Assembly (NCBI GenBank): GCA_009869945.1
Contig: WIXG01000006.1
Location: 582,383-646,382, forward strand
Direction: 5' to 3'
Source of the DNA: Mesaphorura yosii
Taxonomy: Eukaryota; Arthropoda; Collembola; Poduromorpha; Tullbergiidae
Length of the DNA stretch: 64,000 nt
In this document: positions 46,401-49,400 of the stretch, piece after piece
Numbering within the stretch: the first letter of the stretch is position 1
How the letters are laid out: each line of letters starts with the position of its first letter
Position numbers and translations under genes: made by a program
The notes under the pieces: generated by a model
What the model was told of the DNA's origin: nothing
Database searches by the model: none
The model's input: only the letters and a program-made list of their open reading frames with translations

Positions 46401-49400
46401 ATTCATGAATAACGAGGAACTGGATGCAGAAAACGCCGTGACTCACGATGCTCATGAAAGTAGGTTCAGATGGTGTGACTTGTGAAAGAAAGAAATCTCA
46501 ATTTTGTGAACTGATCCCTTAGTCGACCCAATCGTTATTGAGAACGGCACATTTGCTTGGGAACTAGAGCATGTGACACTGAAGAAAATAAACCTCAGAG
46601 TGAAAGAAGGACAGCTGGTTGCCGTAGTGGGCGTAGTCGGCTCTGGAAAGTCGACACTTCTTTCTGCTTTATTGGGAGAATTGGAAAAACTGACTGGGCG
46701 AGTTAACACAAAAGGTACTGCCTTGCGATTAAAATTATCCCCGAGGACGAATCCTTGTTCATCTACCTCAATTTAAATCCAGGAAATGTCGCTTACGTTG
46801 CGCAACAAGCTTGGATTCAAAATGCTACTGTTAAGGATAATGTACTGTTTGGACATCCATTTGACCCTACAAAGTATGATGACATCATTGATGCGTGTGG
46901 TAAGTTCTGCTTCACTTCCGTGTGACTTCAATTTTGCCCTCGGATCTGTCAAGGACTGTTGAATGTCCACCTCAAACTCAGCAAATCCTTTGTAACCAGT
47001 AGTCTGAATCTCTAAATTTTTAGCATTGAGGGAAGACCTGAACATACTGCCCGCAGGTGACAGAACGGAAATTGGTGAAAAGGTTTTATTTGCAATTGAA
47101 AATTGAATTCTGGTACTTTACCTAATGGCACCTAACAATGTGATTTAGGGCATTAATTTGAGCGGTGGTCAAAAGCAACGAGTGTCGTTAGCCCGAGCAG
47201 TTTACAACAACGCTGATCTCTACTACTTGGATGATCCCCTGAGTGCGGTTGACGCTCATGTCGGAAAACACATTTTCGAGAAAGTTATTGGACCAACTGG
47301 AATTCTGAAGAGCAAGACCAGAGTCCTTGTGACTCACGGTATCACTTACTTGCCAAAGGTGGACCAGATCATTGTGATGAAAAATGGCGAAATCAGTGAA
47401 GTTGGAACGTACAAACAGTTGCTTGACAAAAAGGTAACTAGTGGTTTGGGAGTTGTTGCATTACAGGTTGGGTATCAATCTCTTCATCTTCTGTCACAGG
47501 GCGACTTTGCTGAATTTTTATTACAACATATCGGTTCAGAAGAAAATGAAGACGAAGAATTCATTCAAGACTTGGAGAAAGTGATCGGGTCAAACGAAAT
47601 GATTGCCAGACAGCGCTCGAGAGTATCTGAAAGTGAGCAGTCTGGGGAGAAGCCAACCATGCAGCGCCAGAGTTCTGTTGTTTCAAAAGTAAAACCACGC
47701 TTGAGATGGATGTACGCGCTTGCGCGGTACCTTTAATATCATTTTCTATTTGCTCAGGGAAGTGAAGGCAAATGCGGTGTCAGGAAGCTGAGCAAATCCA
47801 TGGAAGTGATACCGACAAGGCCCAAGCAAACTGAACGCCAAGATAAGTTGATTGAGATCGAGAAGTCGGAAACTGGTAAGAGTTGTCACTGTCGGATGCG
47901 TACTTTCCAAACTTACAAATGCATTTGATGGGTTCGCAGGACGAGTGAAGTTTACTGTTTATCGTCACTACCTCAAATCAGTTGGATACGGTTTGGCCTT
48001 CTTCACCATGCTCCTTCATCTCATATATCAAGGTCTCCTAAGAATTCTACAAACATAGCACTTCCTACCTTCGAAATTTTTCTACGAGTTTCATTTCTTA
48101 GGATTTACGGTTTTGTCAAACATCTGGTTGTCGAAGTGGTCGGACTCGTCTCTACATACAAACCTGACGCAAGAAGAGCGGGACGCAGAAAGAGACATGT
48201 ACTTGGGTGTGTACGGTGGCCTTGGCATTGGGCAAGGTGAGACAATTTTCTTTCGCGGTGTACAAGAACATTTAAGGTCTCAAGCCAGGCACACTAAGAC
48301 ATCATTTGGTGATGGGAGACTAGTGAAATTAAAGTAACAGGCGTGGTTGTGGTTGGTGGTGTGGAAACTCAAAATTAAGTGTCATAATTTTGGATGCCAT
48401 GATATGCAGTAGCCAACTTGCACTAAATGCTAATGCTATTATTTTTAAGCCGTGTCGATCCTGTTTGGTGTTACGGTAATGGCGATGGGCACACTAAGAG
48501 CCGCTTCAATTCTACACGCCGAAATGCTTTCTCACATCCTCAAGTCGCCCATGTGGTTCTTCGATGTGACCCCGATTGGCCGGATCGTTAATCGCTTCTC
48601 AAAAGACGTCGACACATGTGATAATACACTGCCACAGAATCTGCGATCACTACTAACCTGCCTATTCAATGTAAGTTGTATTGCACTGGTGATGTCGCTC
48701 AATAATGCAATACCAGAATTGGTGGCTTTAAATGTCGCATGCTCGGTAGCCTTTTTCTTTTCTGCTAAAGGCTCAAATGGTAGAAACTAGTTGCTTATTT
48801 TAACGACTAATTCAAACTGACTTCTTATACGCTATTTTTCCTAAGTTAAAATTATTATAAATTGATAAAGTTTTGTTTGTACGGGATTTATACAACAGCG
48901 TCTGTATCTGTCGTTGCATCTGGACTGATCTTCTACTCGACCGTGAAGGCAGCTGCAGTTCTTCACGATGAAATGTTAAAAAATATTTTGAAAAGCCCTG
49001 TCAGTTTCTTCGACACAACCCCGTTGGGACGGATTCTAAACAGATTCTCTAAGGATCAAGATGTCCTGTTAGTTTTTTATGATTTTGCAAATATTTCCAA
49101 TCACGTTCCCAGATTCAATTCCATTTCAATCCTTTTGCTTTTGTTTGTGTTTCAAAATTTCAGTGACAGCGTCCTGGGCCAGGTATTTCGTATGTGGTTC
49201 CAGTGTTTCTTTTCGGTACATGCATTATTTTGTCAATTCTTTACTCTTGTCTTTACCTTCTGTGTACTGTGACCGTGCATGTTGGGATTTTTGTTACGCT
49301 GTCCACTTCTTGCATACTAATTTCTTGTAAACACTGTTTGCAGGTTCTCTCTACTCTACTGGTGATCAGCCTCACGTAATTTTGTTCTTATAATGTAGTA

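Follow-up and report, generated by a model that had tools for sequence, protein, structure and literature searches.

The stretch of Mesaphorura yosii DNA analyzed here (64,000 nt, referred to as the window) makes up the terminal 64 kb of contig C6 (582383-646382), in a genome of 93.0 Mb and 1127 contigs. An arthropod origin is indicated by 66 genomic matches to the cuticle family Chitin_bind_4; a search for nematode cuticle collagen gave no match, here or in any control genome, and so is no proof of absence. It harbors a gene for a long MRP transporter of the ABCC1/2/3 type (Table 1). When the gene is read through the first of two alternative segments described below (A), the model comprises 34 coding exons in a single open frame of 1517 aa, and all 33 introns of this path are bounded by GT and AG. 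The protein was compared with TIGR00957, the MRP equivalog model, and scored 1961.8 bits (curated cut-off 1470) over profile positions 7-1522 of 1522, which places the gene among the long MRPs. Elsewhere in the window, exons of two other genes were observed, one encoding a receptor ligand-binding region (PF01094, 2864-3199, minus strand) and one a radial spoke protein 3 (PF06098, 21639-22391, plus strand). An NHS-like match (PF15273, 31971-32312, plus strand) stayed below threshold, with 25 bits against a cut-off of 27.

Table 1. Features of the long-MRP gene and its alternative segments (window positions).
Feature	Position	Strand	Basis
Long-MRP (ABCC1/2/3-type) gene, coding span	41992-51199	+	Open gene model and TIGR00957
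Common upstream exon 24, phase 1 out	48102-48236	+	Gene model
Alternative A, single exon, 221 nt, phase 1 in, phase 0 out	48450-48670	+	Gene model
A-B intron, 228 nt	48671-48898	+	GT-AG, donor GTAAGT
Alternative B, first exon (B1), 169 nt	48899-49067	+	Homology to A, splice sites
Intron inside B, 96 nt, stop-free, multiple of three	49068-49163	+	GT and AG ends
Alternative B, second exon (B2), 52 nt, very weak donor TCG/GTACAT	49164-49215	+	Donor score
Common downstream exon 26, 32 nt, phase 0 in	49344-49375	+	Gene model

Between exons 24 and 26 the gene contains two homologous coding segments, A and B. A reading made from the sequence alone (the sequence-only reading) had proposed them as alternative versions of one exon, and the coordinates, lengths, phases and splice dinucleotides that it gave for A, B and the flanking exons were confirmed to the base. 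Passages of PMC3228551 characterize mutually exclusive exons (MXEs) by length, by splice sites and reading frame, and by homology. By this standard A and B correspond closely: B1 and B2 together amount to 169 + 52 = 221 nt, equal to the length of A, both alternatives are of the GT-AG type, entered in phase 1 and left in phase 0, and 35 of 74 residues are identical in a gap-free alignment. Under the strict definition each alternative is a single exon, and B is two exons lying 96 nt apart. A and B thus work like an MXE pair, yet one exon is set against an exon block. Both segments match one common stretch of the MRP2, MRP1 and MRP3 chains in the PDB. The shared core named earlier as FF-TP-GRI-NRFSKD held in essence and is more exactly FFD.TP.GRI.NRFSKD. 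The introns flanking A measure 213 nt (before A) and 228 nt (A-B); the median of the 30 other introns of the gene, without introns 1, 24 and 25, is 69.5 nt. Intron 6 (44480-44732) is, at 253 nt, the longest besides intron 1 and the A/B region. No second cluster of alternative exons was found in the gene outside intron 6, the only intron with room for one.

An arrangement of this kind might be produced by misassembly, with two alleles or gene copies wrongly placed in tandem. However, A and B are only 46% identical in DNA, far beyond what alleles would show, and they share a single set of flanking exons into which both fit in frame, so that an artefact is hardly credible.

Joined to the remaining exons, either A alone or B1 together with B2 yields an uninterrupted protein of 1517 aa. 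These are the only two of the eight inclusion combinations of A, B1 and B2 that reach full length. The remaining six are truncated, with stops 936-1375 nt upstream of the last exon junction. A stop that far before the last exon junction triggers nonsense-mediated decay. It had been argued that joint use of A and B breaks the frame, and this proved correct; the same applies when neither is included or when B is included by half. The stronger claim, that the reading frame makes the alternatives mutually exclusive, stands in part: the other mRNAs are indeed unproductive, however the frame does not make splicing exclusive. Since two of eight combinations are productive, the frame acts as a filter on products and does not account for the avoidance of double splicing. 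The six early stops, all far before the last junction, would also suit a role of the locus as an off-switch, in which inclusion of B, or of A and B jointly, yields decaying transcripts and so tunes the level of the pump. A poison exon, though, need not encode a full second transmembrane segment with the conserved motif and a matching length, and we consider this role improbable.

The coding quality of B was assessed by comparison with A and with 12 paralogs. Across the 74 codons A and B differ at 38 first, 25 second and 57 third positions. When 2000 copies of A were simulated with B's number of differences placed at random, 95% contained a stop, and the most similar simulated copy kept 27 residues identical to A, against 35 observed for B. 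All 11 columns that are invariant in the paralogs are kept by B and likewise by A. Where at least 75% of the paralogs agree (27 columns), B keeps 21 and A keeps 24. Judged by its sequence, B is not a decaying copy, because the invariant residues are retained throughout and the differences fall mostly at third positions. In the segment trees, however, B sits on a long branch of about 1.1 changes per column, and it lacks a proline present in 10 of the 12 paralogs as well as a common glycine; the long branch and the missing proline could mean relaxed constraint.

The splice sites of the two alternatives differ markedly in strength. The outer donor of B, at the end of B2, reaches -0.9 bits, less than any of the gene's 33 constitutive donors (minimum 1.1), while the donor of A scores above 29 of these 33. 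The acceptor of A exceeds 11 of the 33 acceptors of the gene. Within B, the first acceptor exceeds 7 of 33 and is thus below average, the second exceeds 13, and the inner donor of B1 exceeds 12 of the 33 donors. As the outer donor of B is weaker than all others, the default is probably A, with B chosen rarely or under regulation. Owing to this donor and the below-average first acceptor, B may be used rarely. In the extreme case, B would be a residual, almost unused exon, a relic of coding sequence, and the gene would in practice make the A pump only. The weak donor, the long branch and the lost proline and glycine all agree with such a relic. It would be less expected that B should remain open over 74 codons with every invariant column in place, that differences at third positions should outnumber those at second positions by 57 to 25, and that four usable splice sites should persist. 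We therefore allow the relic a small but real chance.

The 96-nt intron inside B offers a further reading. It is stop-free and a multiple of three, and its retention would give an open protein of 1549 aa; B could then be one exon of 317 nt, with the 96 nt kept as coding sequence and a pump carrying 32 extra residues. Against this, removal of the 96 nt leaves exactly the 221 nt found in A and in four paralogs, with a gap-free alignment, and the 96 nt begin with GT and end with AG. Moreover, two of the gene's 31 remaining short introns are likewise open and a multiple of three. A single 317-nt exon seems slightly more improbable still than the off-switch. A DNA search of the genome revealed no other copy of the 96-nt intron, matching its own place alone, and an origin from a repeated element was consequently dropped.

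We also asked which known routes to exclusive splicing might operate here. According to parts of PMC5740500, steric exclusion is limited to cases with less than 50 bp between donor and branch point. By its length of 228 nt the A-B intron is too long for this, and, being GT-AG with the donor GTAAGT, it gives no sign of a U2/U12 mismatch. For competing intron pairing, six intron pairs were evaluated. The best of them, the A-B intron with the intron between B2 and exon 26, reached z -1.91 (p 0.045, uncorrected). The folding energy of the A/B region equals that of shuffles, and the longest helices in three intron pairs were matched by 18, 33 and 15 of 100 shuffles. Thus, in the six intron pairs, the energy of the region and the three helix tests, no competing pairing clearly beyond shuffles was found. 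Duplicated intron sequence around A and B was no better than in shuffles either.

The genome was then searched with each version (30 candidates scored in each search, so that weaker copies could be missed). With A, at E up to 0.01, 21 places were found, namely A, B and 19 other contigs; with B, 24 places were found, namely B1, B2, A and 21 other contigs. Among the scored candidates no other MRP locus held a second copy, each of the 19 and 21 contigs giving one match. A relaxed tblastn of 17 loci and of window positions 47000-52000 revealed no additional copy below E 0.2.

Twelve paralog loci were taken at length, and the exon borders were measured in four intron-bearing ones (C79, C952, C658 and C102). 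In all four the corresponding unit totals 221 nt and, by the conserved frame, is entered in phase 1 and left in phase 0. In three of the four it is one uninterrupted exon with the same boundaries as A. In C102 it is split into 155 + 66 nt by an 87-nt intron (reverse complement of the C102 locus, 4477-4784). In a further copy, C679, read by eye, the downstream border is kept and there is no upstream intron. Because A and three of the four measured intron-bearing paralogs have a single uninterrupted 221-nt exon, that form looks ancestral in this MRP family and the internal intron of B looks derived, in agreement with the earlier suggestion that B had gained it. The comparison covers copies within this genome, and intron loss in the other copies instead of a gain in B would also be compatible with it. 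An internal intron in this unit is not peculiar to B, since C102 has one of its own. The two insertion points (169 + 52 in B) lie 14 nt apart and differ in phase. B and C102 paired weakly in three of four segment trees (support 67/52, 62/54 and 73/43). The two introns might share an origin by sliding, which the pairing would suit, though it is weak and the introns differ in position and phase.

The genome holds many long-MRP copies, intron-poor ones beside intron-rich ones. In C539, C704, C144, C610 and C328 the long-MRP copy occupies one open frame each, 1149-1301 aa in length, and the long-MRP match of C673 lies in three long pieces. Intron-poor copies could have been made through RNA or could have arisen by wholesale intron loss. 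C673 carries an A-like segment only, with 52 of 74 residues identical to A. Outside the segment, it shares 320 of 429 residues with the gene downstream and 559 of 980 upstream. In segment trees A groups with C673, and the long row C679 joins them in the 14-row trees. A sister relation of A and B gave p-AU values of 0.043-0.046 with 14 rows, 0.123 with 12 rows (C679 and C610 dropped) and 0.061 with 10 rows (C144 and C704 also dropped). A, B and C673 as one clade were not rejected, with 0.146 for 14 rows and 0.558 and 0.382 for the reduced sets. These trees comprise 74 columns and include the long B branch. The A/B duplication may predate the divergence of C673, which in that case might have arisen from a spliced A transcript, in the way argued for mosquito Mhc3 and Mhc4. 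Passages of PMC2257972 describe Mhc3 and Mhc4 of Aedes and Culex as gene copies with one variant of each alternative exon, and argue for their origin from spliced transcripts. The intron-poor C673 resembles them in holding one version of the segment only, but it is much more diverged.

To place the differences in the protein, we used an alignment of MRP chains together with the general topology of ABCC transporters. The A/B segment is taken to lie in the second membrane domain and to run from the end of one transmembrane helix through a cytosolic coupling loop (FFD.TP.GR..NR) into the beginning of the next helix. Of the 41 loop positions, 28 are identical in A and B; in the presumed helix parts the counts are only 2 of 17 and 5 of 16. 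The differences had been described earlier as membrane-facing; they are indeed concentrated in the presumed transmembrane parts, however the term is too specific, since one of them aligns with a residue of the substrate pocket. This residue is Met1092 of bovine MRP1, which part of PMC8491190 lists in the hydrophobic half of the LTC4 pocket. Opposite Met1092, B has Met whereas A has Ser, as do the MRP2 chains. In the 12 paralogs the position is occupied by D (four), M and L (two each), and A, S, W and F (one each). Going by the residues found there, the position might determine specificity or might just be unconstrained. Its free variation among the paralogs counts against the model favored below.

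Exchangeable exons in MRP genes are known. Drosophila melanogaster mrp (CG6214) has a cluster of eight mutually exclusive exons, according to a passage of PMC6071210 that also reports multiple independent duplications in MRP genes; one fly isoform is named '8a 4b' in an excerpt of PMC6185855. Passages of PMC9741552 describe the events in fly mrp and worm mrp-1 as unrelated, coinciding in one structural region. The Collembolan gene resembles Drosophila mrp (PMC6071210 and PMC9741552, in part) in transporter class and in the use of interchangeable tandem exons, but has two versions, of which one is interrupted by an intron, instead of an eight-exon cluster; the two may or may not coincide in position. 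C. elegans mrp-1 is likewise an MRP orthologue with homologous tandem alternative exons, as described in the same part of PMC9741552. The sequence-only reading had seen in the Drosophila exons a hint of an old arthropod arrangement. This is not supported, because these passages describe unrelated fly and worm events and independent MRP duplications. In three other arthropod papers the matter did not come up: terms for alternative or mutually exclusive splicing are absent from the main texts of the spider mite paper (PMC3724490) and the Daphnia paper (PMC2680897), and 'splic' and 'mutually exclusive' are absent from the Tigriopus paper (PMC4247197), which tabulates its ten ABCC1 'isoforms' as separate sequences.

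Frame incompatibility is also familiar from other genes. In a passage of PMC5740500 it applies to 377 (60%) of human MXE clusters, and a section heading of that paper states that MXE clusters mainly hold one ubiquitous exon while the others are regulated. The human frame-incompatible clusters are like the present case in that lengths are not divisible by three and joint inclusion is unproductive (same paper, in part); they differ in that here one alternative is a two-exon block. Part of PMC3228551 mentions fly genes on the X chromosome that use groups of two to four exons in an exclusive manner, probably through trans-splicing. No described case of a split alternative in an MRP surfaced in the literature search, which mostly did not extend to full texts. 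While MRP exchangeable exons and frame-incompatible MXEs are already known, the two-exon block as one alternative would, pending RNA evidence, be what is new here.

Taken together, we favor, with a probability of roughly 0.77, a working pair of mutually exclusive alternatives that arose by duplication of an ancestral 221-nt long-MRP exon. The exclusive splicing, the decay, the regulation and the substrate effect in this model are predictions. The ancestral exon would have been duplicated into A and B, A keeping the single-exon form and B acquiring the 96-nt intron, after which B1 and B2 would have to enter jointly, as a block. Between exons 24 and 26 the spliceosome would insert one of the two, A or the B block; A has the much stronger donor and would probably be the default, with B as the regulated choice. 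Transcripts with both, with neither or with half of B would be frameshifted and removed by nonsense-mediated decay. The two resulting pumps would have the same ATPase domains and a largely identical coupling loop, would differ in the helix parts including the one pocket position, and would probably differ in what they carry. A further idea, speculative and held at low odds, is that splicing must couple B1 and B2, since a two-exon block rivals a single exon as the unit of choice, and that the 96-nt in-frame intron may be an additional switch, leading to a third full-length pump in which 32 additional residues lie next to the coupling loop.

In the papers cited, independent gains of exchangeable exons are described for MRP genes of several animal groups, and this suggests a role of such segments in tuning export by the pump. 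In M. yosii there are only two versions to choose from, of which one is split, and the other MRP members of the genome show one version each. If both versions are used, the gene would offer a compact test case for the competition of one exon with an exon pair, and for the question whether the substrate range of the transporter depends on this segment.
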